The translations under genes and the position numbers were made by a program. A stretch of 64,000 nucleotides of DNA, from positions 124,001 to 188,000 of the forward strand of contig JADMKE010000001.1 in the NCBI GenBank assembly GCA_018780035.1, written 5' to 3'. Positions 2,839-17,634 of the stretch are shown in pieces. How positions within the stretch are numbered: position 1 is the stretch's first letter; every line of letters starts with the position of its first letter. The DNA comes from Candidatus Sericytochromatia bacterium (GTDB lineage Bacteria; Cyanobacteriota; Sericytochromatia; UBA7694). The notes beneath the pieces are model-generated. The model ran no database searches and was not told the DNA's origin. It worked only from the letters and a program-made list of their open reading frames with translations.

Positions 2839-3114
2839 ATGTATATCCGGGATTTTATCGCCAAATGGCAGGCGTCTTCACTCAAAGAGCGTTCGACCAG
2901 CCAAGATTGTAGTGGTTGTGGTGAACGGGTTGCTAAAGAATTGAGTGAACGGGTGCATCACTGTGATCTATGCGGTTTAGAGTTAGACCGTGATCACAAT
3001 GCTGCACTGAATATACTCAGCAAAGGATTAGGTTTAATCGGTACTGTGGGGCACACAGGAACCGGGCATCCCAGAGATGCCGAAACGCCTGAGGAGAGAC
3101 AAGCCGCTGCTTGA
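2839..3114 (+). pseudogene. tnpB: C-terminal remnant of an IS200/IS605-type TnpB (OrfB) transposase
   Basis: Only the last ~90 residues survive. The frame holds the zinc ribbon TSQDCSGCGERV...HHCDLCGLELDRDHNAALNIL, in which four cysteines are spaced as in TnpB. The DRDHNAALNI segment contains the last RuvC aspartate. The rest of the RuvC domain and the first two acidic residues are missing, so it is not a working RNA-guided nuclease. Sequence upstream (about 2756-2838) is GC-rich and may be older remnant, but no protein match is visible. The typical transposon right end follows directly. Confidence 0.85.
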
Positions 3115-3191
3115 ACTCTGGAAACAGACTCAAGTAAGTTTGCTCGGTGAATCAGGAACCCCCGTCATTTATGGCGGGGAGGATGTCAGGC
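3115..3191 (+). mobile_element. Retained right end / omega-RNA-like hairpin of the TnpB element
   Basis: After the tnpB stop, a stem of CCCCG and CGGGG with loop-side pairs (3160-3179) is followed by AGGATGTCAG. IS605-group elements commonly end with such a hairpin and a short tail resembling ATGTCAA, and the same region encodes the 3' part of the TnpB guide RNA. The hairpin is intact even though the protein is truncated. No left end was recognised. Confidence 0.6.
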
Positions 3192-3363
3192 CACCTCAAG
3201 AAGCACTGGCCCCAGCGCCAGAAGAAGCCCTGAATCACTTGTTTTTCTCATTGGTTGAACGCTATGAACCCAACACGCCCACTCACAGCCCAGACGATGC
3301 TGATAGAGCAAACTCAAAATCTGATAAAATAAAGCTCTCAAGTGAGAGAACAATCAGGTAAAA

Positions 3364-4013: not shown

Positions 4014-4844
4014 TCAAGCCAGAAACCAGCGAATCCCTTCAAACAGCGCCCAGCCACCCGCCAATAAAAGCAAAGCAGCTGAAATTCGGTTAATGATCTG
4101 GCCGTGGTATTTGAGAAAACTGACCTGTTTGCTCAGGCCTGTAAACAGGCTGGCCAAAAATAACAAGAGGGTGTATCCCAGGCCATAAGCGGCCATGGTG
4201 GCCACCGACAGCAAGAGATTTTCTGAGGTGGCCGCCAGAGCCAATACCCCAAACAAAACCGGGCTGGCACAGGGCGAGCTGATCAGGGCAAAAGCCATGC
4301 CCACGACAAAGGGCCCGGCATTGGGCATCCGATTGACCACCTGGGGCAGAGGCAAATGAATCCACTCCAACATGGCAGCGGCCATGACCATGACAATCAG
4401 GGCCACAGCCACAAAGAGCCAGCCTTTGTAGACCACCATCACAGCCTGAGCAAAACCCGAGGCCAGTCCAAAGAGCGAAGTCACCAGCACCACGCCCAGC
4501 ACAAACGATCCGGCCTTTAAAAAGGCATCTTTGCGGCTTTCGATTTTAAGGGTGCCAATATACCCCAAATTGAGGGGCAACATGGCCAAAATACACGGCG
4601 AAATGCTGCCCAGGATTCCGCCCAGAAAAGCCATGGCCAAGAGAGCCGGAAAAGGCAATCCAGCACCCTGATTGGCAACCAGATCCCCATACCAGCCTTC
4701 ACTCTGGCTCAAGACCCGTTCGAGCAAAAGCGGGTTAAAGAGCGCGATCAGACCCAGGAACAGCAGGCCTGAAAAAAGCAGACCCAGCCCCCACACCGCC
4801 AGCGGCCTTTTTTGTGCGGGTTTTTGCTCAGAACGGGCAGCCAT
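4014..4844 (-). CDS. CcdA/DsbD-type thiol-disulfide transmembrane protein
   Basis: A 276-residue integral membrane protein with about seven hydrophobic segments. Two conserved half-repeats carry the redox cysteines: SISPCILAMLPLN near the start and SSPCASPVLFGVLA in the second half. This is the CcdA/DsbD transmembrane family, which carries electrons from cytoplasmic thioredoxin across the membrane to periplasmic thiol proteins. The gene begins 4 bases after the stop of a secreted thioredoxin with AAGGAG before its ATG, so the thioredoxin is the natural periplasmic partner. Proposed uses are cytochrome c maturation or repair of oxidised proteins. Confidence 0.92.
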   Translation of the reverse strand: MAARSEQKPAQKRPLAVWGLGLLFSGLLFLGLIALFNPLLLERVLSQSEGWYGDLVANQGAGLPFPALLAMAFLGGILGSISPCILAMLPLNLGYIGTLKIESRKDAFLKAGSFVLGVVLVTSLFGLASGFAQAVMVVYKGWLFVAVALIVMVMAAAMLEWIHLPLPQVVNRMPNAGPFVVGMAFALISSPCASPVLFGVLALAATSENLLLSVATMAAYGLGYTLLLFLASLFTGLSKQVSFLKYHGQIINRISAALLLLAGGWALFEGIRWFLA

Positions 4845-4848
4845 GGTT

Positions 4849-5301
4849 TTACTCCTTGTGAGCGGCCAGGGCTTTGTTCAAAGCGGCCACATATTTGTCT
4901 TTGCGGCCTTCAGCCATAAAGACCGACAGCACTTTTTTGGTCTCGGGATCAATGATCGCCACCGTTGAGGTGCGTGAACCGTACTCCGCATAAAATTTTT
5001 CCAGGCCCAGTTCTTTGACCTTTTTTTCGGCTTCTGCTGTGGTTTTGGCATTGGTGACATCAAGCATGACCCACTGGGCTTTGCTCATATACTCTTTCAT
5101 CACGCCCATCACGGTGGGAGAGATTTTTTTGCAGGCCGGGCACCAGTCCGCTTTGACCACAGCGACAATCGGCATATTCTGTGCTTTGGCGGGCTGAGTG
5201 GCTGCTTCGGCTGCGCTGGGTTTTTCTGCCAAAGCGGGGGTAACGATCGCGCCCGCAGCCAACAAGAGCGCGGCCATAGAGAGGACAATAGGTTTAAACA
5301 T
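4849..5301 (-). CDS. Secreted thioredoxin-like protein (CPAC active site)
   Basis: A 150-residue protein with a clear N-terminal signal peptide (hydrophobic run ending ALA-E) and a thioredoxin fold. The active-site pair is WCPACKK, Cys54 and Cys57. It probably reduces disulfides in the periplasm and is itself reduced by the CcdA-like protein encoded immediately downstream. It lacks the TlpA-type insertion motif that I would look for in a dedicated cytochrome maturation factor. Its promoter has a TGTCA-N6-TGACA dyad placed exactly like those before the peroxiredoxin fusion, the Met-rich/cytochrome c unit and the subtilase gene, which ties it to a common regulon. Confidence 0.92.
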   Translation of the reverse strand: MFKPIVLSMAALLLAAGAIVTPALAEKPSAAEAATQPAKAQNMPIVAVVKADWCPACKKISPTVMGVMKEYMSKAQWVMLDVTNAKTTAEAEKKVKELGLEKFYAEYGSRTSTVAIIDPETKKVLSVFMAEGRKDKYVAALNKALAAHKE

Positions 5302-5360: not shown

Positions 5361-5403
5361 ACTCTAGCGGGAAGCGCTTGAGAAAAATGTCAGTTGGTTG
5401 ACA
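5361..5403 (-). promoter_or_regulatory. Class II CRP/FNR-type promoter (dyad 5388-5403, -10 box 5361-5366) for the thioredoxin-ccdA operon
   Basis: On the minus strand the dyad TGTCA-ACCAAC-TGACA is followed by exactly 21 bases and then TAGAGT. A 16 bp dyad with 21 bases to the -10 corresponds to a site centred at -41.5, the class II arrangement of CRP/FNR-family activators. Three further copies with the same spacing occur in this window. Confidence 0.65.
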
Positions 5404-5404
5404 A

Positions 5405-6409
5405 TCAAAAATAGAATTTTTCTCGAACTCTTTCACTGGCCACCCAGGTGGCAATAGCGTTAGAGATACGCATAGGCTGATCCTCATTGAGATAGTGGCT
5501 CCCAACACCCACAGACGCAACTGTGAGATTTTTGAAGTGTGTTTGCGCATAATCCAACTGAGCTTGTTGAATCAAAAACCCAGGTTCTGCTTTTATAAGC
5601 AAAATGGGAATAAGGGATTCTTTTAGCCCCTTTGCATTTTGATTGAAAATATCCGCGATTCCCGTTTGAGCTTGGATATCTTTGCCAATCGTGGCGGGTC
5701 CCATCCCTTCCAGTAAAACTTTTTGGCGTATGGCCGGTTCAGTAAAAGGAGCGCTGTATAACGCCAACTCTTGCGGTGACAAAGTTCGCTTGGTAAACAT
5801 GGCCAAAAACAGAGGGACGGGGTTCATGCCTACCAAAGCCAGTTTTGCCATCAGTGGATTTTCCATTTGCTGAAACATCATCTGCTGAAAAGGTGAAATC
5901 GACTGAATCCATTCCTGAGAAGGCATATACGCCCCTTCTAGAATGACCAAGCGCTTCACGCGTTCTGGATGTTGAAGCGCATAGTGAATCCCAATCACAG
6001 AACCCAGATCTGTGACAACCAAAGTCATGTCACGGTAATTTTGGGCTTCAATAAAGTCAGATAAAAACTGGTACTGACTTGCAAAATCATAGTTGATATT
6101 CAAGGGTTTATCGGATTGGCCATACCCCAAAAAATCAAGTGCGATGGCATTTCCAACTCTTGCAAGCTCAGGAATTATCTTTCGCCAAAGGCCAGCATGG
6201 GTTGGAATGCCATGTAACATTAAAATGGGTTCACCTTGGCCTGCTTGCAAATAATGGGCTTTGCCCTGGGGCAGGTGAGTATATTGCGATTGAGGAGCTG
6301 TGTTCTCTGCTCTGGCTTGTAGAGAGAGCAACAGGGTTAAAGAAATCCACAATAACGAAACCCATTTTTTGCGCCGTCCAGACCTGAATTGAGGTTGTGT
6401 TTTTTGCAT
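5405..6409 (-). CDS. Exported alpha/beta hydrolase resembling haloalkane dehalogenases
   Basis: A 334-residue protein with a signal peptide (RRKKW followed by a leucine-rich run to QARAEN). The alpha/beta-hydrolase landmarks are in order: oxyanion-side HGIPTHAGLW, strand LDFLGYGQSDKP, the nucleophile elbow VVTDLGSVIG and a late His in SHYLNEDQP. The nucleophile is Asp134, as in haloalkane dehalogenases and related epoxide hydrolases, instead of the serine of esterases. Signal-peptide export is unusual for that group. The ATG chosen lies 4 bases after the DUF2892 stop; an upstream in-frame start would overlap that gene and precede the signal peptide badly. Substrate is unknown. Confidence 0.82.
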   Translation of the reverse strand: MQKTQPQFRSGRRKKWVSLLWISLTLLLSLQARAENTAPQSQYTHLPQGKAHYLQAGQGEPILMLHGIPTHAGLWRKIIPELARVGNAIALDFLGYGQSDKPLNINYDFASQYQFLSDFIEAQNYRDMTLVVTDLGSVIGIHYALQHPERVKRLVILEGAYMPSQEWIQSISPFQQMMFQQMENPLMAKLALVGMNPVPLFLAMFTKRTLSPQELALYSAPFTEPAIRQKVLLEGMGPATIGKDIQAQTGIADIFNQNAKGLKESLIPILLIKAEPGFLIQQAQLDYAQTHFKNLTVASVGVGSHYLNEDQPMRISNAIATWVASERVREKFYF

Positions 6410-6413
6410 ATTT

Positions 6414-6674
6414 TTAGGCCTTTCTTTCTTTCCCTGAAATCGGACAGGTTGAAAAACCCAAAAAATAATAAACACTGCAACTGCCCATCACAGCCGTGAG
6501 CATCAACATGAACCCCACCATTAACGATAGCCATGCGACAGGGCCGCTTAAAACGTGTTGGTAAACAAGCCAGCCTGTCAGCGGCAAAAATAGGGCTCTG
6601 ATCAGGCGATCCACGCGACCGACATTGCGGGTGGTGAGCGTTTTCAAAAAACGGGATTGTAGTGTCATGTTCAT
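6414..6674 (-). CDS. DUF2892 (YgaP-type transmembrane domain) small inner membrane protein
   Basis: An 86-residue protein with NVGRVDRLIRALFLPLTGWL followed by a second hydrophobic stretch ending GSCSVYYFLGFSTCP. The N-[VI]-G-x-x-D-R-x-x-R opening and the C-x-x-Y-x-x-x-G-x-x-T ending are the marks of DUF2892, the membrane part of YgaP-like rhodanese proteins; here no rhodanese domain is attached. AAGGAG precedes the start. It heads a two-gene operon with the dehalogenase-like hydrolase and is divergent from the LysR gene, which probably controls it. Confidence 0.85.
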   Translation of the reverse strand: MNMTLQSRFLKTLTTRNVGRVDRLIRALFLPLTGWLVYQHVLSGPVAWLSLMVGFMLMLTAVMGSCSVYYFLGFSTCPISGKERKA

Positions 6675-6756
6675 CTCCTTGGAATTTTTTCATGGTTCAT
6701 CCAAATTCTAAGGGGTTTTATTAAACAAATTAATAGGGTTAATCATTCAAATATTT

Positions 6757-6771
6757 TCACAAGATTTGTGA
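6757..6771. promoter_or_regulatory. Perfect dyad TCACAA-GAT-TTGTGA between divergent DUF2892 and lysR genes
   Basis: The six-base arms are perfect inverted repeats around GAT. The right arm runs into GATAAT, a likely -10 box for the LysR gene, and in the other direction a TATTAA follows 21 bases away. This is where a LysR-type regulator would repress itself and activate the divergent operon. Binding is inferred from position only. Confidence 0.5.
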
Positions 6772-6817
6772 TAATATCCAGAGATAAGAATTGGGTCAGT
6801 TTGAAGACGGAGGCCAA

Positions 6818-7714
6818 ATGGTTCCCCATTTACAAGACATTCAGACATTTCTAGTGGTGTGCGAGACCGGTGGGATGGGCAAAGCTGCCAATATTTTGCA
6901 GCTTTCTACCAATGCTGTCAGCCAGCGCATCAAACGCCTGGAAAGCCAATTGGGAGTTCAGCTTTTAAACCGCAGCACACGCAGTTTGAGCCCCACGGCC
7001 CAGGGCCAACAGCTTCTGAGTAAAGCACGTTTGCTCTTGAGTGAGTTGGAAAGCATTCTGGAAGATATTTCACCCCATCCTTCTGAATTAGCTGGAGTGG
7101 TAAGACTGGGCCTGCCCAGTGGCATGTTATCTGAATATGTTTTAAAGCAGCTCAATTCCCTGCTTATTTCTCAGCCCAAATTGCACTTGCAAATTGAAAT
7201 TCTCAACGATCCTGCAGAGGTCATTTCCCGCAATTTGGACTTGGGCATTACCCCCTTCCCACCGCGTGATCTGGCTTTGATCTCCCGCAAAATAGGCTCT
7301 GTCAGTTGGAAGTTATGCGCCGCTCCGGCTTATGTGCAGCGCAATGGTTTGCCTCAAACCCTGGCCGAATTAAGCCAACATCGCTGTCTCTGTTTTCTGT
7401 CCAATCCCCCTCAGCGCCATTGGGATCTTTTGGACACCAACAACCAAATCGTCTCTGTGGCGGTTTCCGGCCCGCTGGAAAGCAATGACAGTCGTCTCTT
7501 GGGAGATGCGGTATATGCCGGTTTGGGCATTGGGGTGCGTTCAACGCGAGAGCTTCTCGATGCGGTCGCATCAAATAAACTGATCCCTGTCTTGCCAGAC
7601 TATACCTTTCAATCCATCGATGTTCTGGTCTTGTACAGCCGTGGGCGTTTAAAAAGCCGCAAAGTGAAAGCTGTTTATGATGCTCTCACTGAGGCGCTTC
7701 GCTGGATTGAGTAA
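6818..7714 (+). CDS. LysR-family transcriptional regulator
   Basis: A 298-residue protein. The N-terminal winged helix-turn-helix covers about residues 1-60 (GGMGKAANILQLSTNAVSQR, then LESQLGVQLLNRSTRSLSPT), followed by the LysR effector-binding domain. The start is the ATG preceded by GGAGG; a TTG nine codons upstream lacks a ribosome site. It is divergent from DUF2892 and the dehalogenase-like hydrolase, with a perfect dyad between them, so these are the most likely targets. The effector cannot be named. The class II promoter of the downstream peroxiredoxin unit begins 8 bases after its stop, so lysR is not part of that operon. Confidence 0.93.
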   Translation: MVPHLQDIQTFLVVCETGGMGKAANILQLSTNAVSQRIKRLESQLGVQLLNRSTRSLSPTAQGQQLLSKARLLLSELESILEDISPHPSELAGVVRLGLPSGMLSEYVLKQLNSLLISQPKLHLQIEILNDPAEVISRNLDLGITPFPPRDLALISRKIGSVSWKLCAAPAYVQRNGLPQTLAELSQHRCLCFLSNPPQRHWDLLDTNNQIVSVAVSGPLESNDSRLLGDAVYAGLGIGVRSTRELLDAVASNKLIPVLPDYTFQSIDVLVLYSRGRLKSRKVKAVYDALTEALRWIE

Positions 7715-7722
7715 TTTTGATT

Positions 7723-7765
7723 TGTCAGCTAACTGACAGCAAAAATATCTTTCAGCCTCTATACT
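7723..7765 (+). promoter_or_regulatory. Class II CRP/FNR-type promoter (dyad 7723-7738, -10 box 7760-7765) of the peroxiredoxin operon
   Basis: TGTCA-GCTAAC-TGACA, 21 bases, then TATACT. Same spacing as the three sister promoters. The predicted transcript would start near 7772, giving a leader of about 100 bases that contains the hairpin at 7796-7848. Confidence 0.68.
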
Positions 7766-7795
7766 CAATTTTGTCTTCAATCCCCATTGAGACAG

Positions 7796-7848
7796 CCGAT
7801 GAAAATGAAGCCGATGAATAACTACCCTGGCCATTTTCATCGGTTTTT
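7796..7848 (+). promoter_or_regulatory. Leader hairpin with T-run (attenuator-like) before the metallopeptidase-peroxiredoxin gene
   Basis: CCGATGAAAATG (7796-7807) is a perfect 12-base inverted repeat of CATTTTCATCGG (7832-7843), followed by TTTTTCT. A second copy of CCGATGAA at 7811-7818 can pair with the same 3' arm, giving two competing structures. The stem is upstream of the AGGAGG and ATG of the gene, so it could act as a terminator/antiterminator within the leader. Confidence 0.5.
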
Positions 7849-7870
7849 CTATTCAATCAGGAGGCCTGAT

Positions 7871-9388
7871 ATGCAAATTCCCCCTTCTTTCCCGGTTCAA
7901 ACATCAGAAGGCCCTGTTCACAGGCCCACCTATCGCAATCAAACACAGCTGCCCCTTCAAGATCAAACAAAACCAGATGCTCAAGACAGACTGCAAACAC
8001 ATCATCTCCCCTCTGAAAAAACACTGACACAGGTGGAACTTTGGGAGCCCAATGACGCGCCAATTCAATCCCTAGCGGAGATCGAGCAGCTTTTAAAAGA
8101 CGTTATCCATCAATCTTTCCCCGAACTCAAAACAGCAAAAATTGGCTTGGCTTCATTAAAGGATGAGTCTGTTTTTTTTCAAAGCAATTTTAAACCTTTG
8201 AGCCTGTTCAAAAAAAACAAACATTATCTCATTCAAGTCAATCCAGCCATCTTTAAGCGCAACTTGCCCAAAGAGGCTGCAAAGGCCATTTTGGCCCATG
8301 AGCTTTCTCATACCTTGGATTATCACAAGGCAGGAATGGGTGGCATCATCGGTGTGGGGTGGCATTTAATCAGCGATCCCACTTGTTATGAACACCTAAC
8401 GGATTTACAAGCCATTTCAAGGGGGTATGGTAAGGGCTTGATGGCCTACAGAAACTGGGTCTATACACAAATCCCTGCCAAAGATTTAGAAAAAAAACAA
8501 ACGACTTATTACCAGCCGCATGAAATTCAAGCCCTGATCTTGAGCTTGGAACAAGCGCAGAATCAAGGCCAAGCAACAAACTTGATCCAATCTTGGTTAA
8601 ACGATCCCCCCCTTCAGCTCTCAGAAATTACACAACGCCTGGAAATCCTCAGCGGTCAACAGAAACATGTCAAACAAAAACATAAAGCAGGGGTTCCTGA
8701 AAAAGATGGTATCCCAGCTATCTTAAATCCGCTATTTGAAAGTGCCGAGCAGGCCCTGCGAGATTTAAATAGCCAGGGGTTGGCTAAAATGCCGCCCACA
8801 GCCAAGGCCATTTTGCAAACAAGTTTAAGAGAATTATTGGCCAGTGGGCTGGCCGAAAAAGCACTCCAGGTTGGACAGAAAGTTCCCGATGGTGTGCTGC
8901 CCAATGCCTTCGGGCAAAAAATAGCCATTCAGGATCTCTATGCCCAGGGACCGCTGGTGATCAGCTTTTACCGGGGAAGTTGGTGCCCCTATTGCAATTT
9001 GGAATTGCGGGCCCAACAGGCCATCTTGCCAGAACTTCAAGCGTTGGGAGCACAATTGGTGGCCATTTCACCCGAATTGCCCGATCACAGCCTCGATTTA
9101 AAAGAAAAACTGGCCTTGGAATTTGAAGTCCTCAGTGACCGCGAAAATGCCTATGCCCGTTCTCTGGGGTTGGTTTTTGAAGTGGATCCTGACTTACAGT
9201 CGTTGTATCGCGGTCTCTTGAATCTCAGTCTGACACAGCACAATGGCAGTGAAAAAGCCGAGCTACCTATTCCTGCAACGTATGTGATCAACCGTTTAGG
9301 CAAAGTCATGCTGGCCCATGTTCAAGCGGATTATACCCAGCGCATGGAGCCAGACAGCATCTTAAAAGTCCTTAAATTCGAAAAATAA
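7871..9388 (+). CDS. Fusion protein: HExxH metallopeptidase-like domain plus peroxiredoxin (AhpC/TSA) domain
   Basis: A 505-residue protein with two unrelated parts. Residues about 60-260 resemble a small zinc metallopeptidase, with AAKAILAHELSHTLDYH (His143, Glu144, His147) and conserved acidic residues further on. Residues about 330-505 are a redoxin domain with GPLVISFYRGSWCPYCNLEL (Cys372, Cys375), VAISPE and PATYVINRLGKV. No signal peptide is evident at the chosen start; the ATG has AGGAGG six bases upstream. The peroxiredoxin half would reduce peroxides through its CxxC; the protease half may act on damaged protein. It is followed by a second peroxiredoxin gene. The domain boundaries are by eye, and I know of no named family with this architecture. 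Confidence 0.75.
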   Translation: MQIPPSFPVQTSEGPVHRPTYRNQTQLPLQDQTKPDAQDRLQTHHLPSEKTLTQVELWEPNDAPIQSLAEIEQLLKDVIHQSFPELKTAKIGLASLKDESVFFQSNFKPLSLFKKNKHYLIQVNPAIFKRNLPKEAAKAILAHELSHTLDYHKAGMGGIIGVGWHLISDPTCYEHLTDLQAISRGYGKGLMAYRNWVYTQIPAKDLEKKQTTYYQPHEIQALILSLEQAQNQGQATNLIQSWLNDPPLQLSEITQRLEILSGQQKHVKQKHKAGVPEKDGIPAILNPLFESAEQALRDLNSQGLAKMPPTAKAILQTSLRELLASGLAEKALQVGQKVPDGVLPNAFGQKIAIQDLYAQGPLVISFYRGSWCPYCNLELRAQQAILPELQALGAQLVAISPELPDHSLDLKEKLALEFEVLSDRENAYARSLGLVFEVDPDLQSLYRGLLNLSLTQHNGSEKAELPIPATYVINRLGKVMLAHVQADYTQRMEPDSILKVLKFEK

Positions 9389-9430
9389 CCCAAAAATAAC
9401 CCAAAAAAATAGCCATTGGGGTGGTTGAAT

Positions 9431-10297
9431 ATGTTAAAATCTTTGTTTATTCCCATCTGGATGATGGGATTGGTATTTTTGTTGTATTACAGCGCTTTGA
9501 AACTTTTCCAAGCAGATTTTCGCTCGCTGTTCTGGTGGAGTTTATTCTGCGCGACAGCGTTGGGGCCGCTCTTCATGGCTTCATTGTTTGTCTTTAAACG
9601 CGCCCGCACCCCGTCCAATTTGACCGTTTGGACAGCCTTCGAGCTGCTGGCGATTGGCCTGGGCGTTGGGGCCTGGTGGCGTGAACAGCTCCCATTAAAG
9701 GCTCCTTTGCTCGGTTTGGGGATGCTTGGGGGGGCTTGGCTTTTGTATGTGTATTGGTATTCTCGCCTGCAAAAACCTGAAAATACCCCCTTAAAACTGG
9801 GGCAGCCCCTGCCTGAGATGGTCTTTGTCGATCTTCATCAGCGCGAAGTGAAATCTTCAGACTGGCTGGGAAAACCCGTCTTGATTTTGTTTTACCGGGG
9901 CAATTGGTGCCCACTCTGTATGGCCCAAATTCAAGAGGTGGCCAAACAATACCGGGAATTGAGTGAATGGGGAGTGCAGATCGCTCTGATCAGCCCCCAA
10001 GATCAGGCCCACAGCCAAGCTTTGGCCGACAAATTTTCAGTGCCCATGCAATTTTTGACAGACCCCCAGGGGGCGATGGCGCAAAAACTGGATATTTTTC
10101 ATGCCTGGGGCCTGCCAACGGGTATGCAGGTCCTGGGTTATGATAAAAACACCGTCTTGCCTACGGTGATGATTGTCGATGCCGCTGGCATTGTGCAATT
10201 TGTTGAAATCGCCGATAATTACCGGGTTCGGCCTGAACCCCGTGTTTTTATCGAAATTTTAAAAAGGCATCGGATTTTAAACCAAGAGGATTCATGA
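9431..10297 (+). CDS. Membrane-anchored peroxiredoxin/AhpC-TSA protein
   Basis: A 288-residue protein. Three to four hydrophobic segments fill the first ~115 residues (for example FIPIWMMGLVFLLYYSALKL), and a redoxin domain follows with LILFYRGNWCPLCMAQIQEV; the cysteines are 160 and 163. The redox domain is most similar in style to that of the gene 42 bases upstream, so the two probably arose from related thiol peroxidases, one soluble and one membrane-bound. GGGGTGG before the ATG favours this start over a TTG five codons earlier. A broken lipoprotein gene begins one base after the stop. Confidence 0.85.
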   Translation: MLKSLFIPIWMMGLVFLLYYSALKLFQADFRSLFWWSLFCATALGPLFMASLFVFKRARTPSNLTVWTAFELLAIGLGVGAWWREQLPLKAPLLGLGMLGGAWLLYVYWYSRLQKPENTPLKLGQPLPEMVFVDLHQREVKSSDWLGKPVLILFYRGNWCPLCMAQIQEVAKQYRELSEWGVQIALISPQDQAHSQALADKFSVPMQFLTDPQGAMAQKLDIFHAWGLPTGMQVLGYDKNTVLPTVMIVDAAGIVQFVEIADNYRVRPEPRVFIEILKRHRILNQEDS

Positions 10298-10298
10298 C

Positions 10299-11033
10299 AT
10301 GTATAAACCCCTGCTGATTGTCTGCTTTTTATTAGGCGTCCTGCCCCTCTCTGCCTGCCAATTGCCTGTTTCTCAGTGATCGGCCCAGGCTGTGCAAACT
10401 GTGAATTTTTTGAACTTAAGGGTGGAGGAGATCGGCGCAAAACGGGCGGTGCTCCGTTTTGAAACCAGCCGGGAAACGAGCTGTGAAGCAGAGTTTGGGC
10501 TCAAGCCTGAGAATCTGGACCGTCGGGCCAGAGATCCTGACATGGACCTCAATAACCCGTACTCCATTCAGCACCAAGTCCCTTTGGAAGATCTTGAAAG
10601 TGGTCAAACTTATTTCAAACACCCGTGGCAGAAGCCTTGCCGCCAGGACTCAAGGCCCTGGCTTTGGGAGACGATTTTGAAGTGGCGGGGGTCAGCAGCC
10701 AATTTGGAGGGGATGATTTCAATGGCCCTTTCTGCATTCACAAGGCCTTTGATGCCAGCATGGCCACGGAGTGGTCAAGTCAGGGAGATGGCAACAAAGC
10801 CTTTGTCAGCCTGCGTTTTAAACAGCCCCAAAGGCTGAGCCATTATTCAGTCCATTCGGTTGATTCTGAATGAGGGCGAACAGGTTTTGGGGCTTTTTTT
10901 AAGCCCAGACCCCAGCCAAAATTATCTGTTTGCTTTAAATTCCAGTCTCAATATCACAGGTCTCAAAATTGAGACCGTGAGCAGCAGTGGCGGGAATACC
11001 GGTGCACGGGAAATTCGTTTTTACACAAAATAA
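10299..11033 (+). pseudogene. Broken lipoprotein gene with discoidin (F5/8 type C)-like C-terminal domain
   Basis: A lipoprotein signal (MYKPLLIVCFLLGVLPLSAC) opens one base after the peroxiredoxin gene and is cut by an in-frame TGA after only 26 codons. Coding-like sequence continues in the same frame (VNFLNLRVEEIGAKRAVLRF), then shifts frame near 10620 to GLKALALGDDFEVAGV...KAFDASMATEWSSQGDG, and shifts again near 10858 to EGEQVLGLFLSPDPSQ...GAREIRFYTK before TAA. The ATEWSSQGDG and REIRFYTK segments are typical of carbohydrate-binding discoidin-like folds. One stop and two frameshifts indicate loss of function, unless they are sequencing errors. Confidence 0.75.
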
Positions 11034-11052
11034 TTTTTCAATTTCTTGCCAT

Positions 11053-11095
11053 TGTCACTTACTTGACAGATTTTTAATTTAAGCGAGGTGATAAT
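11053..11095 (+). promoter_or_regulatory. Class II CRP/FNR-type promoter (dyad 11053-11068, -10 box 11090-11095) of the Met-rich protein/cytochrome c unit
   Basis: TGTCA-CTTACT-TGACA, 21 bases, then GATAAT. Same geometry as the sister promoters at 5361, 7723 and 14621. The start codon lies 44 bases beyond the -10 box. Confidence 0.65.
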
Positions 11096-11138
11096 GGCAG
11101 TATAAATCAATTATTTTGCAAAAAAGGAAGAAATAAAG

Positions 11139-12986
11139 ATGAAATTTAAATTAATTAAACAAGGTTTATTTTCACTCATGGCAGCTTCTGTGCTGCTTCA
11201 GACCCCCGTTTTGACCCAGGCGGCCCATGCCGAAAGAAACGAGCATTTTGATACGGCCCAAGCCATGTATCTGGCCAATGAAGAGATCAAGGTTTTTTCC
11301 TGTGGCCTGCCTTATAAATCACTGGGTTCAGCGATTGATACCGATTCATACTGGTATTCACTTTACAATCTGGGCAATCTGTCGATGATGTCGGGTATGG
11401 GTGTGCATCTGGTCAATGGGCCCGTGGGTGTGATGATGTCGAATCAAAACAAAGCCATGTTCCCCACCCCCCAAGCCTTTATGATGTCGAAGGTCAAACA
11501 ATTTATGATGCGTTCAGGCCTCAAAGACATGCCCAAGAATATGTATCCCACCTATTTGCCTTTTGCAGGCGGCACACCTCAGTTCACCCGCAGTATCAAC
11601 CCCTTTGATGCCGAAACCCTGCGTTGGAGTCCACAGAGTTTTGATACCCAGATCAAAATGGATGCCCTGGGTCAGACGGTCATGAAACAGGTTTTGTGGT
11701 CTGAAGATTTTTTCAGTGCTCACCGGGGCACTCAACTCGGGCGAACAGAGATGGATGGTTTTCGGGGCGGTGTTTTGACCGCTGCCAGTTTAAACGCCCT
11801 GATGGCTTTAAAAGATCAATTGGCTTTTGACGGCAGCAAGTTTGCCCCTGTTGACCCAATGAACTATGAGCCCATGAAAGGCCTGCGCTACTTCCCTCAC
11901 GCCGTGGAGCCCCAGCTGCAGAGCAGTATGCCGGGCATGCCCGCGATGTTGACGGGATTTAAAGTCAAAGATGCCCATTCTCGGCTCTTTGATCAGTCCT
12001 CTTTGCTTTGGGCTGCCAGTGAATTTTATTTTTACTCAGATCCGCTCGTCAAAGACAGTTTTGATGTGATCTTCGGCGAAGAAGCTCAGGGAGCGCTCTT
12101 TCCCACCATGCCCCATATGCTCGCCAAAGGGGTTTCTGCTGTGCTTTTAAAAAACCTGATGGCGATGCACCAAAACGGCAAACATGGGGTTTTTGTTGAC
12201 CAAGCCCGCCCCGGCCACCAAGACAGCTGGGTTTCCACTGCCAGTTCGGGCATGTTGATCACCGCTTTGGAAAACAGTGCCAAAGCCTTTCATGATGATC
12301 CCATGCTCAAACAAATGGCCACCCAGTTTTTAACTGCCCAGGCAGATTTCCTCGTAAACAAACTGCAAACCCCCGATGGGCGCTTTTATACAGGGTTTCA
12401 TTTGGATCAACAAAAACCTGAAAGTGGCGCATTTACGCTGGAGTCTCAAGGGTTTGCAATCAAAGCCCTGGTTCTGGCCCATCAAATGACGGGCAAAGAA
12501 GTCTACCAATTGGCCGCTCAAAGAGGTTACGAGGCCCTCAAAAAATATTTTTGGGCCGAAGAAGCTCAGGTCTTTAAAGCCCACGATGCCGATCAAGATG
12601 AGACCACGCTTGATGCCCAAAGCATTGCCGCCACATTGGGTGCGCTGCGTGAGTTGGCCTTGCAAAGTGATGGGAGTGCCCGCAAAGATCTGGTGGCATA
12701 TATGAGCAAGTTCTTTGAACACAGTGTCAAACGCGAAGATGGCCAGGGTCTGCAATTGGCAGAAATGGGGGAAACCGGCGAAATGATGCCCGAAGATGAA
12801 ATGGAAATGGTCAAAATGACGCTTCAGATGAGCCAGATGATGCGCATGCCCGAAGAGAAACGCATGGAAATCATGATGGGGATGCGGGACAGCGACGAAG
12901 ACGGAACTCCCAACCCCATGTTTGCTGGGGGCATGTTTGGCACCGCTCCTGTTACCGCCCAAAGTATTACGGTCGCTCTTAATTAA
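11139..12986 (+). CDS. Exported Met-rich protein of unknown function, cytochrome c partner
   Basis: A 615-residue protein with a signal peptide (hydrophobic run to TQAAHA-E). The sequence is unusually rich in methionine throughout (MMSGMGVHL, PTPQAFMMSKVKQFMM). Near the C-terminus comes an acidic Met block, residues about 545-590, with EMMPEDEMEMVKM and MSQMMRMPEEKRMEIMMGM. The second half (SSGMLITALENSAKAF, QGFAIKALVLAH, SIAATLGALRELAL) looks like repeated helix pairs of an alpha/alpha-toroid. No family was recognised with certainty. The Met clusters could bind copper(I), which is inference. GGAAG precedes the ATG. It is followed by a cytochrome c gene after 21 bases and is driven by a class II-type promoter. 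Confidence 0.8.
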   Translation: MKFKLIKQGLFSLMAASVLLQTPVLTQAAHAERNEHFDTAQAMYLANEEIKVFSCGLPYKSLGSAIDTDSYWYSLYNLGNLSMMSGMGVHLVNGPVGVMMSNQNKAMFPTPQAFMMSKVKQFMMRSGLKDMPKNMYPTYLPFAGGTPQFTRSINPFDAETLRWSPQSFDTQIKMDALGQTVMKQVLWSEDFFSAHRGTQLGRTEMDGFRGGVLTAASLNALMALKDQLAFDGSKFAPVDPMNYEPMKGLRYFPHAVEPQLQSSMPGMPAMLTGFKVKDAHSRLFDQSSLLWAASEFYFYSDPLVKDSFDVIFGEEAQGALFPTMPHMLAKGVSAVLLKNLMAMHQNGKHGVFVDQARPGHQDSWVSTASSGMLITALENSAKAFHDDPMLKQMATQFLTAQADFLVNKLQTPDGRFYTGFHLDQQKPESGAFTLESQGFAIKALVLAHQMTGKEVYQLAAQRGYEALKKYFWAEEAQVFKAHDADQDETTLDAQSIAATLGALRELALQSDGSARKDLVAYMSKFFEHSVKREDGQGLQLAEMGETGEMMPEDEMEMVKMTLQMSQMMRMPEEKRMEIMMGMRDSDEDGTPNPMFAGGMFGTAPVTAQSITVALN

Positions 12987-13007
12987 GTGAGGAAAGGAAA
13001 TCACCCC

Positions 13008-13382
13008 ATGAAAATGATTTGGAAAAAAACCTTACAGGTCAGTTTGGGCTTGGCTGTTTTAACGGGAGGCCTGATCTGGTTCAATGGCTCAGAACCACCT
13101 GCTGAAGCGGCATCAGGCAATGCCAAAGCAGGAAAAAAGGTGTATATGCAACGCTGCGCCACCTGTCATGGCAATACCGGTAAAGCCGATGGTCCTGTGG
13201 GCAAAGCGCTGACCCCCAAACCCCGTGATTTCAGTGTCGGCAAATTTTTATACGCCAAAAATGACGCTGAGTTGATTGCTTTTATTAAAAAGGGCAAATC
13301 CCCCATGCCTGCCTGGGAAGGGACCTTAAACCCAACCCAGCTCCAAGATGTGGTCGCCTTTATTCATACCTTGAAAAAATAG
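13008..13382 (+). CDS. Small periplasmic c-type cytochrome
   Basis: A 124-residue class I cytochrome c with an N-terminal signal/anchor (VSLGLAVLTGGLIWF). The heme site is CATCH (Cys50, Cys53, His54) and the distal ligand is probably Met100 in SPMPAWEG, followed by LQDVVAFIHTLKK, the usual C-terminal helix. It would carry single electrons in the periplasm. A GTG start seven codons earlier overlaps the intergenic space; the ATG with GGAAAGGAA upstream is preferred. It is co-transcribed with the Met-rich exported protein, which is therefore a candidate redox partner, and is closed by a strong terminator. Confidence 0.93.
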   Translation: MKMIWKKTLQVSLGLAVLTGGLIWFNGSEPPAEAASGNAKAGKKVYMQRCATCHGNTGKADGPVGKALTPKPRDFSVGKFLYAKNDAELIAFIKKGKSPMPAWEGTLNPTQLQDVVAFIHTLKK

Positions 13383-13409
13383 AAATTGTTTCCCCTCCCC
13401 TCGGTTTTG

Positions 13410-13440
13410 CGCTGCCAGATCTTTTGGCAGCGTTTTTTTT
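13410..13440 (+). terminator. Rho-independent terminator after the cytochrome c gene
   Basis: Perfect 8 bp stem CGCTGCCA/TGGCAGCG with a 7-base loop, followed by eight T residues. Confidence 0.92.
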
Positions 13441-13468
13441 GCCATAATGCTACATGAGGTAAATTCAA

Positions 13469-14161
13469 ATGTTGGATGCCCATTTGCAAAAACATTTACA
13501 GAGGCCCTTAACAGCCCTGGGCAGGGGCCTAAGTGCCTGGTCAATTCAGGCCAATACAGTTACCCTGATTGGTTTTTTTGCGGGTCTGGCCGCCATTCCC
13601 TGCCTGGCCACCCAGCACTATGGCTGGGCTCTGGGTTTGATCTGTTTCAACCGTTTTTGTGATGGCCTCGATGGCGCCATGGCTCGGCTTCAGGGCCCCA
13701 CCGACTTTGGGGGCTATCTGGATATTGTCTGCGATTTTATTTTTTATGCCGGGGTGGTCTGGGGCATGTCTCTGGCCCGCCCCCAAGAGGCTGGCTGGGC
13801 CGCACTGCTGCTTTTTAGCTTTATGGGCACTGCCAGCTCGTTTCTGGCGTATGCCATTCTTGCAGCCAAACAGGGCCAGGACAAACCCCAAGGCAAACCC
13901 CAGGTTTTGCCCAAAGCGTTTTATTACCTCGGCGGGTTAACCGAAGGCACCGAAACGATTGCCTTGCTGGTCTTTTTTTGCCTCTTTCCCCAGTGGTTTG
14001 TGCCCGCTTCGCTGGTCTTCTCTCTGATGTGCTGGGTGACGACCCTGACCCGCGTGCTGGGTGCGCGGCGATTATTGGCTGTGGAGCAGGAGTCTATGGA
14101 AAGATCCCCTCAATTCAAAGACCCAAAGGGGAAAATTGAAAAACAAGGAGTCGAGTCATGA
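13469..14161 (+). CDS. CDP-alcohol phosphatidyltransferase family membrane protein
   Basis: A 230-residue membrane enzyme. The signature runs DGLDGAMAR, then GGYLDIVCD, matching the D-x2-D-G-x2-A-R...G-x3-D-x3-D motif that binds CDP-activated lipid and metal (Asp65, Asp68 and the two later aspartates). It transfers a phosphatidyl group from a CDP-alcohol to a second alcohol at the cytoplasmic face of the membrane. The acceptor (glycerol phosphate, inositol phosphate or other) cannot be assigned. Several hydrophobic segments follow. The stop overlaps the next start by four bases (ATGA), linking it to a CopZ-N-like Fe-S protein, an odd pairing. Confidence 0.88.
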   Translation: MLDAHLQKHLQRPLTALGRGLSAWSIQANTVTLIGFFAGLAAIPCLATQHYGWALGLICFNRFCDGLDGAMARLQGPTDFGGYLDIVCDFIFYAGVVWGMSLARPQEAGWAALLLFSFMGTASSFLAYAILAAKQGQDKPQGKPQVLPKAFYYLGGLTEGTETIALLVFFCLFPQWFVPASLVFSLMCWVTTLTRVLGARRLLAVEQESMERSPQFKDPKGKIEKQGVES

Positions 14162-14634
14162 GTACCTGTTGCCCTCTGAAGATTAAACATAAACCCGTGA
14201 CTGCTTGTCCCTATTGCCAGCAAAAAGGCCGCGCCATTGCCATCGAAACCCTCAAATCACAACTCAAACCCCTCTTCATGCGCGAGCTTAAAGCCGAAGC
14301 CACTTATTATTTTTGTGCCCACCCCACTTGTTCTTCCGTCTATTTTCAGCAAGAACAGGTGTTTAAACTGGAACAGATTCGCGAAAAGGTTTTTCAAAAA
14401 AATCAGGAGCCCGACTGTCTGGTCTGTTATTGTTTTGGCTTTACACGCGGCGAAGTCATGCAGGATGCCCAAACAAACACACCACAGATTTTAAACCAAA
14501 TTAAGACGGGGACAAAAAACAAACAATGTGCCTGTGAATTGAGAAATCCCCAGGGGCGCTGTTGCCTGGGGAATATTGCCGATCTGCAAACGCAAGCGAC
14601 TTCAAAAAACGCATCGCTGTTGTCAGGAAGCTGA
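14158..14634 (+). CDS. CopZ N-terminal-domain-like [2Fe-2S]/zinc protein
   Basis: A 158-residue cysteine-rich protein. Cysteine pairs come in the order TACPYCQQKG, YYFCAHPTCSSVYF, CLVCYCFGFTRGEV, and CACELRNPQGRCCLGNIADL. This is the layout of the N-terminal domain of Archaeoglobus-type CopZ, which binds a [2Fe-2S] cluster and a zinc and is related to BFD-type domains. The C-terminal HMA copper domain of full CopZ is absent. The predicted role is cytoplasmic electron supply, for example reducing copper(II). It is translationally coupled to the CDP-alcohol phosphatidyltransferase gene. Its stop codon lies inside the dyad of the next promoter. Confidence 0.82.
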   Translation: MSTCCPLKIKHKPVTACPYCQQKGRAIAIETLKSQLKPLFMRELKAEATYYFCAHPTCSSVYFQQEQVFKLEQIREKVFQKNQEPDCLVCYCFGFTRGEVMQDAQTNTPQILNQIKTGTKNKQCACELRNPQGRCCLGNIADLQTQATSKNASLLSGS

Positions 14635-14663
14635 CAATTAAAAAAGATTAAACAAAATATAAT
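14621..14663 (+). promoter_or_regulatory. Class II CRP/FNR-type promoter (dyad 14621-14636, -10 box 14658-14663) of the subtilase gene
   Basis: TGTCA-GGAAGC-TGACA, 21 bases, then a perfect TATAAT. This is the clearest of the four copies: the dyad extends to TTGTCAG...CTGACAA and the -10 is consensus. Confidence 0.72.
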
Positions 14664-14691: not shown

Positions 14692-15957
14692 ATGTTTTTG
14701 AAATCCCCCCGTATCAGTCTTGGTCTGGCTCTGACAGCCCTTTCACTCAGCGCCTGTCAAAGTTCACTGAGTCCATTGAACTCATCCTTGATAAGCAATC
14801 CCTCTCTCCAAAGCCAAGCTGCAGTTTCAGCCAATAAACTGAACAATCGCGTCTTGATCGGCTATAAAGGCCAGTTGCTGCCAGCCAAAGTACAATCTTT
14901 GGCACAACAAGGTCTCAAACTGGTGCGCGATCTGCCCAAGCTTCAGATCGCCGTATTTGAAGGCAATCCCAATCAGCTTCGCTTTTTAAGTGCCGATCCC
15001 CAAATTGACTTTGTGGGCACCGATCAATCTCCTCGCAGAATTGTGGGTCAGCCCCAAGAAGTCGCAACACCGATCACGCGTTCAGGAGATCCCCTCAAAG
15101 AGCAGCAATGGAGCCTGAAAGCCGTAGATGCAGAAAAAGCCTGGGGCCTGACACGGGGTTCAAGCAATATTATCGCCGCAGTGGTCGATACAGGGGTTGA
15201 TCTCAATCATCCTGATCTTCAGGCCAATTTGCTGGAGGGCTATAATGCTGAGAATCCTGGTACCCCTCCCCAAGATGGCCATTTTCATGGCACCCATGTC
15301 GCAGGCATTATTGCCGCTGTGGCCGATAACGGGATTGGTGTCACAGGCATTGCCCCAGGTATCAAAATTTTACCCGTGCGCACCATCAGCAACGGTGGTG
15401 TGGCAGAAGTGGCCGATGGCATTGTTTGGGCCGCAGATCATGGGGCCCGTGTGATTAATCTGAGTCTGGGCTGGGACTACCCCACTTCTGCGGTTGAAGA
15501 AACCATTCAGCGGGCTGTCAAATATGCCTTGGACAAAAATGTGGTGATCTGTGCCGCGCTTTCCAATGACAGCAACAATAATCCCAGTAGTACCCCCGAC
15601 AACTTGGCGGGTAAAGCCGGTTTTGAAGGCGTAATCGGAGTGGGCAATGTGGATCTGTATAACCGCCGCCAAGGGGCTTATGGCAATTGGAAATCCGTTT
15701 CTTCACCCGGCACCCAGATCATGTCGACCTTGCCCAATGGCAAATATGGCAATTTAACGGGCACCTCAATGGCTACCCCCATGGTCACCGGCATAGTGGG
15801 GCTGATGCTATCTCAAAATCCAGGGCTCAAAAATAGCGAAGTCAAACAACGTTTGATGAGCTCTGCCATTGACCTCGGAACCCCAGGTTTTGATGACCAA
15901 TTTGGCGCAGGGCGCGTCAACGCCTTTGCGGTTTTAAGCAATACACGTTTGCGATAG
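14692..15957 (+). CDS. Subtilisin-family (S8) serine protease lipoprotein
   Basis: A 421-residue protein with a lipobox LSLSAC (Cys22). After a propeptide-like region come the catalytic triad motifs: VVDTGVDLNHPDL (Asp), HGTHVAGIIAAV (His) and GTSMATPMVTGIVGLML (Ser), with the oxyanion Asn in ICAALSNDSNNN. It is therefore a complete subtilase anchored by lipid in the envelope. The propeptide (about residues 50-120) contains VLIGYKGQLL and LVRDLPKLQIAVFEG, typical of inhibitor I9-like folds. It has its own class II-type promoter and is monocistronic, ended by a strong terminator. Confidence 0.94.
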   Translation: MFLKSPRISLGLALTALSLSACQSSLSPLNSSLISNPSLQSQAAVSANKLNNRVLIGYKGQLLPAKVQSLAQQGLKLVRDLPKLQIAVFEGNPNQLRFLSADPQIDFVGTDQSPRRIVGQPQEVATPITRSGDPLKEQQWSLKAVDAEKAWGLTRGSSNIIAAVVDTGVDLNHPDLQANLLEGYNAENPGTPPQDGHFHGTHVAGIIAAVADNGIGVTGIAPGIKILPVRTISNGGVAEVADGIVWAADHGARVINLSLGWDYPTSAVEETIQRAVKYALDKNVVICAALSNDSNNNPSSTPDNLAGKAGFEGVIGVGNVDLYNRRQGAYGNWKSVSSPGTQIMSTLPNGKYGNLTGTSMATPMVTGIVGLMLSQNPGLKNSEVKQRLMSSAIDLGTPGFDDQFGAGRVNAFAVLSNTRLR

Positions 15958-17053: not shown

Positions 17054-17302
17054 ATGCTGACCAAATTGCAGAAATGGGGAAACAGTCAAGGGCTGCGTCT
17101 TTCTAAAGAAATCTTATCCAGCCTGCATTTGGCTGTGGGGGATGAAGTCGAAGTTTCAGTTGAACAAGGGCGGATTGTGATTGAACCTGTAACGCAGATT
17201 CGGGGAAAATACAGTTTGAAGGCCCTGGTGCGGGAAATTCCCGCCAATTACCAGGTTCAGGAAGAAAATTGGGGGCAAGCAGCGGGGAAAGAGGTCTGGT
17301 AA
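17054..17302 (+). CDS. mazE: MazE/AbrB-fold antitoxin
   Basis: An 82-residue protein with an N-terminal swapped-hairpin DNA-binding domain: KLQKWGNSQGLRLSKEIL and then VGDEVEVSVEQGRIVIEPV. The C-terminal tail (about residues 55-82) would wrap the toxin. It represses its own promoter through the palindrome upstream and neutralises MazF. Its stop shares one base with the mazF start (TAATG), typical of coupled toxin-antitoxin expression. Confidence 0.92.
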   Translation: MLTKLQKWGNSQGLRLSKEILSSLHLAVGDEVEVSVEQGRIVIEPVTQIRGKYSLKALVREIPANYQVQEENWGQAAGKEVW

Positions 17303-17634
17303 TGGCTGATATCCCACAAAAAGGCGATTTTATTTATCTGACCTTTGATCCCCAAGCGGGCCATGAGCAAAGGGGACGACGTCCGGCTCTGGTTGTCAGC
17401 AACACCTTGTTTAACAAGCACACAGGTCTGGCCTTGGTTTGCCCCATTACCAACACTTTTCGGAATTTTCCCTTTCATGTGGCTATTCCTGCCGATACAG
17501 GGCTGACAGGATATATTATGGTCGAACAAGTTAAGTCTGTTGATTACAAAATACGTGAGGCGAAACGCATTAAACGCGCCCCGCTTGCGGTTTTAAACGA
17601 AGTCTTGGCCCTGTTGGATGCCTGCTTGTATTAG
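17302..17634 (+). CDS. mazF: MazF/PemK-family endoribonuclease toxin
   Basis: A 110-residue protein with the family core: PQKGDFIYLTFDPQAGHEQR, GRRPALVVSNTLFNK, ALVCPITNT and IMVEQVKSVDYKIREA. MazF enzymes cleave mRNA at short sequence motifs; the motif here is unknown. Length and conserved residues (the RRPALVVS arginine and the EQVKSVD segment) suggest an intact toxin. The ATG overlapping the antitoxin stop is preferred to a longer in-frame start. The stop codon overlaps the stop of the convergent chrA gene within TTAG. Confidence 0.93.
   Translation: MADIPQKGDFIYLTFDPQAGHEQRGRRPALVVSNTLFNKHTGLALVCPITNTFRNFPFHVAIPADTGLTGYIMVEQVKSVDYKIREAKRIKRAPLAVLNEVLALLDACLY

Follow-up and report, generated by a model that had tools for sequence, protein, structure and literature searches.

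TGTCA-type dyads with class II spacing upstream of envelope redox genes in a Candidatus Sericytochromatia genome, and a candidate CRP/FNR-family regulator

FNR binds a [4Fe-4S] cluster through four cysteine residues and recognizes the half-site TTGAT. CRP uses Arg180 to bond G2 of the half-site T1G2T3G4A5, and the base pair at G4 is contacted by Arg185 and Glu181, which bond the G and its C (PMC11253593). A literature search for a TGTCA-binding regulator pointed to CooA, a carbon monoxide (CO)-sensing CRP/FNR activator with the Desulfovibrio motif TGTCGGCNNGCCGACA (PMC545781). MrpC of Myxococcus xanthus has the consensus TGTYN8RAC (PMC4320627). The cyclic AMP (cAMP)-independent CRP-family regulators SdrP/TTHA1359 (Thermus) and DdrI (Deinococcus) use sites of the form TGTRA-N6-TYACA and TGTGA-N6-TCACA (PMC8465061, PMC11253593). 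Among bufferin operons, sigma/anti-sigma genes (sigma factor, NrsF) were found in Buf1 clusters, not in Buf2 clusters (PMC12452194). Here we analyzed a stretch of 64,000 nt (the window) from the 6.47 Mb genome of a Candidatus Sericytochromatia bacterium (G000), which carries four TGTCA-N6-TGACA dyads upstream of envelope redox genes. Judged from sequence comparison, these dyads are probably the operators of a class II activator; it would belong to a CRP/FNR clade of the Sericytochromatia (G000:C43:10807–11472 in this genome) and serve an envelope redox/copper response.

All four dyads lie exactly where the initial annotation had placed them, and each is followed, as it had stated, by 21 bases and a -10 box:

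5388–5403, minus strand: dyad 1, TGTCAACCAACTGACA, exact match, upstream of thioredoxin-CcdA
5361–5366 (minus strand 5366–5361): -10 box TAGAGT, 21 bp past dyad 1, predicted transcription start ~5354
7723–7738, plus strand: dyad 2, TGTCAGCTAACTGACA, exact match, upstream of the metallopeptidase-peroxiredoxin fusion
7760–7765, plus strand: -10 box TATACT, 21 bp past dyad 2, predicted transcription start ~7772
11053–11068, plus strand: dyad 3, TGTCACTTACTTGACA, exact match, upstream of the Met-rich exported protein and cytochrome c
11090–11095, plus strand: -10 box GATAAT, 21 bp past dyad 3, predicted transcription start ~11102
14621–14636, plus strand: dyad 4, TGTCAGGAAGCTGACA, exact match, upstream of the subtilase lipoprotein
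14658–14663, plus strand: -10 box TATAAT, 21 bp past dyad 4, predicted transcription start ~14670

For exact dyads in the window the expected number is 0.06, and none of 100 shuffles of the window reached four. The gap between dyad and -10 box is exactly 21 bases at 4/4 sites, all oriented toward the downstream genes. At 21, the best common spacing, the sum of the -10 scores was matched in 0/20,000 Markov simulations and in 0/20,000 draws of random window positions, which supports the spacing. Spacers and flanks are unlike among the four copies. Dyad 4 shares the last 14 bp of the preceding open reading frame (ORF, 14158–14634). The product of this ORF, which stands directly before the subtilase gene and overlaps dyad 4 with its 3' end, has a CopZ-type zinc-binding domain (PF18423).

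Scans of the whole genome, which used patterns only, returned 12 exact dyads compared to three matches of the reversed control pattern. The eight dyads outside the window all lie within ORFs, and a clustering of four out of 12 inside 9.25 kb was seen in 3 of 200,000 random placements. With one mismatch allowed, the dyad together with TANNNT at 21 bp matched three sites besides the four of the window, against three matches of the control, so that outside the window cluster the scan yielded background only. The initial annotation had named many equally spaced matches across the genome as the result that would speak against it; no sites other than the four in the window exceed background. The core pattern TGTC-N8-GACA recovered a variant site on contig C43. 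In this genome the exact site is confined to the window cluster, with one variant site, TGTCGGCTGGCAGACA, beside the regulator gene on another contig. A scan at 22 bp spacing gave extra sites in related genomes and a single match in G000 (G000:C50:46783), which lies in a predicted ORF and was left uncounted.

The promoters compared (n = 15) match a -35 hexamer in at most 3/6 positions at spacings of 15–19 bp. No usable -35 hexamer was found in any of these 15 promoters, as class II activation predicts. The dyad centre lies at about -41.5 relative to the predicted start, with a gap of 21 bp in the window and of 21 or 22 bp in the relatives, and this is class II geometry. The class II CRP/FNR assignment of the initial annotation is hence supported by the position of the centre, the missing -35 box, the conservation across genomes and the coherent targets. 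Across 24 sites the half-site reads TGTC-A/g-G-C-T, where positions 1–4 were fixed by the searches and the inner G-C-T preference was not. The six inner bases of the earlier description are not freely variable. An example of a TGTCA-type dyad site is TGTCAGCTAGCTGACA.

The genes downstream of the four dyads are as follows:

4849–5301, minus strand: exported thioredoxin-like protein (PF00085), with dyad-bearing orthologues in G001 and G002
4014–4844, minus strand: CcdA/DsbD-type membrane protein (PF02683), same operon as the thioredoxin-like gene
7787–9388, plus strand: HExxH protein (HELSH motif) fused to a peroxiredoxin (AhpC-TSA, PF00578)
9416–10297, plus strand: membrane-anchored peroxiredoxin (PF00578 and PF08534)
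11139–12986, plus strand: Met-rich exported protein, without a Pfam match, 92% identical in G001
12987–13382, plus strand: cytochrome c (PF13442), same operon as the Met-rich protein
14692–15957, plus strand: subtilase lipoprotein (PF00082)

The start of the fusion ORF is more likely the ATG that follows AGGAGG near 7871. Its HExxH domain and peroxiredoxin are separate in G002 (L054:579–1391, L165:113–820), and at the place of the fusion G001 carries a peroxiredoxin only.

Comparison with related genomes included one of the same genus (G001) and one of the same family (G002); the family sample comprised five genomes. G001 has six exact dyads inside 11 kb on one contig, and G002 has five over two contigs; a dyad identical to dyad 3 is present in G001. 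Thioredoxin-CcdA, a peroxiredoxin and a membrane protein with a VTT domain each have a dyad ahead of their genes in all of G000, G001 and G002. G000 and G001 both have one before the Met-rich protein with its cytochrome c, and G001 (twice) and G002 before YceI with cytochrome P460. Further targets are a glutaredoxin (G001) and an exported MsrB and a spondin-domain protein (G004). The envelope redox/protein-quality set proposed by the initial annotation is coherent, and several of its operons carry dyads in relatives too. No CcdA was detected in either G003 or G004. When the thioredoxin promoters of three genomes are aligned, the dyad is the longest conserved block, with TTGTCA and CTGACA invariant and the flanks largely diverged. 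Those dyads of relatives that were found by the dyad alone have TANNNT at exactly 22 bp in 5/5 cases, which sets the spacing at 21 or 22. The exact dyads of G003, G008 and G009, genomes with no clade regulator, lie in ORFs or have no good -10 box at 21–22 bp.

Some dyads of the relatives have other neighbors. In G002 one dyad (L053:6116–7249) has the VTT gene on one flank and, on the other, a divergent gene for a type III polyketide synthase of the chalcone-synthase type; toward either gene a -10-like box stands at 21 bp. CooA-like dyads with a -10 box at 22 bp were observed in G001 (L156, G001:C40:51642), with no clear target, and in G002 (L163, G002:C202:602), approximately 60 bp before a serine/threonine kinase gene.

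Bufferin-2 genes are dyad targets in G001 and, behind VTT, on contig C43 of G000. A G001:C25 peptide matches NF050166 (BufA2) and a G000:C43 protein matches NF050167 (BufB), both above cut-off. BufB is the MNIO maturase, and G000:C43 also codes for a similar Cys peptide. The C43 genes (L060, 8004–10620) encode the VTT protein, the Cys-rich bufferin-like peptide, the BufB maturase and a DUF2063 protein in an apparent operon behind the variant dyad.

No CRP/FNR gene is present inside the window, as the initial annotation had correctly noted; the likely regulator gene is G000:C43:10807–11472, one of eight loci with PF13545 matches in this genome. The encoded protein matches PF00027 and PF13545 over cut-off, i.e. 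an N-terminal beta roll of the cNMP-binding type and a C-terminal Crp helix-turn-helix (HTH) domain. Its AF2 model (pLDDT 87) has CRP and NtcA as top PDB matches and puts the recognition motif where the second HTH helix begins. The protein forms a clade with G001:C71, G001:C74 and G004:C178, which are 45–56% identical to it (tree support 96/92), and more distantly with G017:C126 (91/80 with G017). Of 386 genomes of the phylum, just four contained the clade: G000, G001 (with two members), G004 and, as a more distant case, G017; a wider contig search yielded the G004 record only.

The recognition (F) helices of the five members read RPTVSE (G000:C43), RPTITE, RPTVTE, RQTVTE and RATATT. CRP has RETVGR, most other homologues compared here have RETVTR or RETLTR, and CooA has RQTTST. 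The clade retains Arg180, whereas Glu181 is replaced by Pro, Gln or Ala and Arg185 by Glu or Thr. Correspondingly, the motif keeps G2 and alters position 4, which fits a change from TGTGA to TGTCA. By this residue logic the clade helix would read the TGTCA half-site. The clade was noticed because a G001 member sits in a dyad cluster, so the residue logic was not built into the search. The cAMP residues Arg82 and Ser83 are absent from the clade, so that of CRP's cAMP and base-reading set only Arg180 is retained, and the haem-ligand segment FCMHSG of CooA aligns to FGE in 5/5 clade proteins. With these residues missing, neither cAMP nor CO sensing by CooA's chemistry is likely; a classification of the regulator as CooA was rejected on account of the absent haem-ligand segment. 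One beta-roll cysteine, present in 5/5 members, is no more than a candidate sensor. The G000:C43 protein has two cysteines in total, compared to four in FNR.

A dyad is present at a distance of at most 1.7 kb from four of the five clade genes. In G000:C43 the variant dyad has TATGAT at 21 bp and faces the VTT-bufferin operon; it stands slightly more than 100 bp ahead of the probable start of the regulator gene. G001:C74 has a dyad with one mismatch, TATCAGCTAGCTGACA, 107 bp ahead of the regulator gene; TAAAAT follows it at 21 bp in the direction of a small divergent ORF, and an exact dyad is 1.7 kb away. This divergent ORF (L051:6394–6636), across the near-perfect dyad, encodes multiple cysteines and has no Pfam match. 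G004 has a dyad at the spondin gene adjoining the C178 regulator, and G017 an exact dyad approximately 1 kb from the C126 regulator, upstream of an exported-protein gene. At equal flank, TGTCN8GACA was found at 3/5 clade genes versus 1/25 other CRP-family genes (p = 0.009); the one-mismatch site of G001:C74 is excluded from this count. In G003, which is without a clade regulator, the dyads appear incidental (in ORFs or with no fitting -10 box). In the comparison of recognition helices among CRP/FNR-family genes that the initial annotation had suggested, the clade that co-localises with the dyads has altered base-reading residues.

Several observations weigh against class II operators read by this clade. 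G002 has at least six regulon dyads, and a clade regulator was not found in its 91% complete, 270-contig assembly. The G001:C71 paralogue has no dyad within ~4–6 kb. In G000 the regulator is flanked by a variant site, on a different contig from the four exact ones. Moreover, the sites on C43, C9, C25, C47, C178, C40, C202, C218 and C480 were retrieved by a pattern containing the -10 box, so the C43 variant and several sites of relatives are not independent evidence for the spacing. The situation in G002, together with a motif-to-helix assignment that is itself inferred, leaves some room for class II sites bound by another PF13545 protein of G000, e.g. one of the SRETVTR type. We regard this as unlikely, since the recognition helices of these proteins retain Glu181 and Arg185 or are of other types, such helix types also occur in relatives without regulon dyads (e.g. 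G003), and their loci have the TGTCN8GACA dyad in just one of 25 cases.

The remaining explanations do without a CRP/FNR activator. A regulon in a single cluster suggests a local regulator, and genes for a LysR-type protein (6791–7714, 8 bp before dyad 2) and an ArsR protein (2347–2691) are near. LysR boxes have the form T-N11-A, which a 16-bp even dyad does not yield; ArsR proteins are mostly repressors, and the promoters here have no -35 box. Both were rejected as regulators because they are missing from the related clusters, and operators of either kind are improbable. Slightly less probable still are repressor operators overlapping the -35 region. The dyads do cover the expected -35 place, and dyads alone cannot separate activation from repression, but a good -10 box without a -35 hexamer is the pattern of activator-dependent promoters and repression does not need a fixed 21/22-bp spacing. 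That all four dyads fall in one 9 kb stretch might also reflect a dispersed element or a chance cluster. The chance of this is negligible: it is contradicted by the random placements and simulations, by the unlike spacers and flanks, and by the conservation in relatives, whose orthologous promoters preserve the dyad amid diverged flanks.

Based on the class II reading with the clade protein as activator, we propose the following mechanism. A dimer would bind TGTC(A/G)GC-NN-GC(T/C)GACA, with its centre near -41.5 in the place left by the absent -35 box, and recruit RNA polymerase to the good -10 box. It would thereby induce cytochromes, the bufferin-2 operon for copper binding, and exported proteins for thiol, peroxide and methionine-sulfoxide repair. 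The stimulus could be oxidised thiols or copper, perhaps perceived via the cysteine conserved in all five clade members. The sequences themselves show the dyads, their spacing, the missing -35 box, the conservation, the target set and the co-localisation with the clade; binding by the clade protein, activation and envelope thiol or copper stress as the signal are deduced from these. A more far-reaching proposal, toward which we are rather sceptical, is that this is an undescribed CRP/FNR clade with CooA-like specificity (position-4 pair replaced) that senses oxidised thiols or copper by cysteine and is a first regulator assigned to a bufferin-2 operon.

Further features were observed around the cluster. 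A MazE/PemK-like toxin-antitoxin pair is located at 17054–17634. Its toxin is 99% identical to a copy within the G001 dyad cluster (L051:13276–13641), compared to 70–92% for the neighbors, which suggests recent movement. A fragment at 2839–3361 resembles the C-terminal zinc ribbon of TnpB (IS605-type) and is probably a decayed transposon gene. About 12–17 kb upstream of the cluster, L055:1591–6498 encodes an RND efflux pump whose adaptor is of the CusB type and whose substrate may be copper or silver.

For an uncultured sister class of cyanobacteria these results provide a concrete, testable regulon and a named candidate regulator. One switch would link thiol repair, methionine-sulfoxide repair, cytochromes and copper binding by bufferins. 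As the three base-contacting residues of the family are well known, the clade may also be seen as a natural experiment on the CRP recognition code, with two residues and one base altered.

Compared with described systems, the regulon is new and the half-site is precedented. The earlier statement that the half-site is neither that of CRP nor that of FNR holds, yet the half-site is already known for CooA and is compatible with MrpC. CooA shares the 16-bp dyad type with the operator TGTC(A/G)-N6-(C/T)GACA and the inner GC; the G004 site TGTCGGCAAGCCGACA matches the CooA consensus exactly, and the CooA F-helix SRQTTST keeps Arg180 without Glu181 and Arg185. In the tree CooA groups weakly with the clade, on a long branch. 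It differs in its haem ligands (Cys75 and His77 in FCMHSG), which are absent from the five clade proteins, and in its targets, which here are envelope redox and copper genes and not CO dehydrogenase. No coo operon is among the operons beside dyads, coo genes elsewhere in the genome not having been searched for.

E. coli CRP has in common with the clade the fold, the domains, a 16-bp dyad near -41.5 and Arg180. It differs in its site (TGTGA versus TGTCA) and in Glu181, Arg185, Arg82 and Ser83, which the clade lacks. FNR differs in both cysteine content, with two cysteines in the G000 protein, and half-site. MrpC is set beside the clade by its motif, as a CRP-family protein whose consensus permits TGTC-N8-GAC, but is a developmental regulator with hundreds of sites. 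SdrP/TTHA1359 and DdrI, which binds DNA without cAMP, are functional parallels outside the cAMP paradigm with sites that differ from TGTCA. Like the bufferin-1 operon, the genes described here combine a bufferin precursor with an MNIO maturase, in this case BufA2 and BufB; the difference is that a CRP-type dyad stands ahead of the Buf2 genes.

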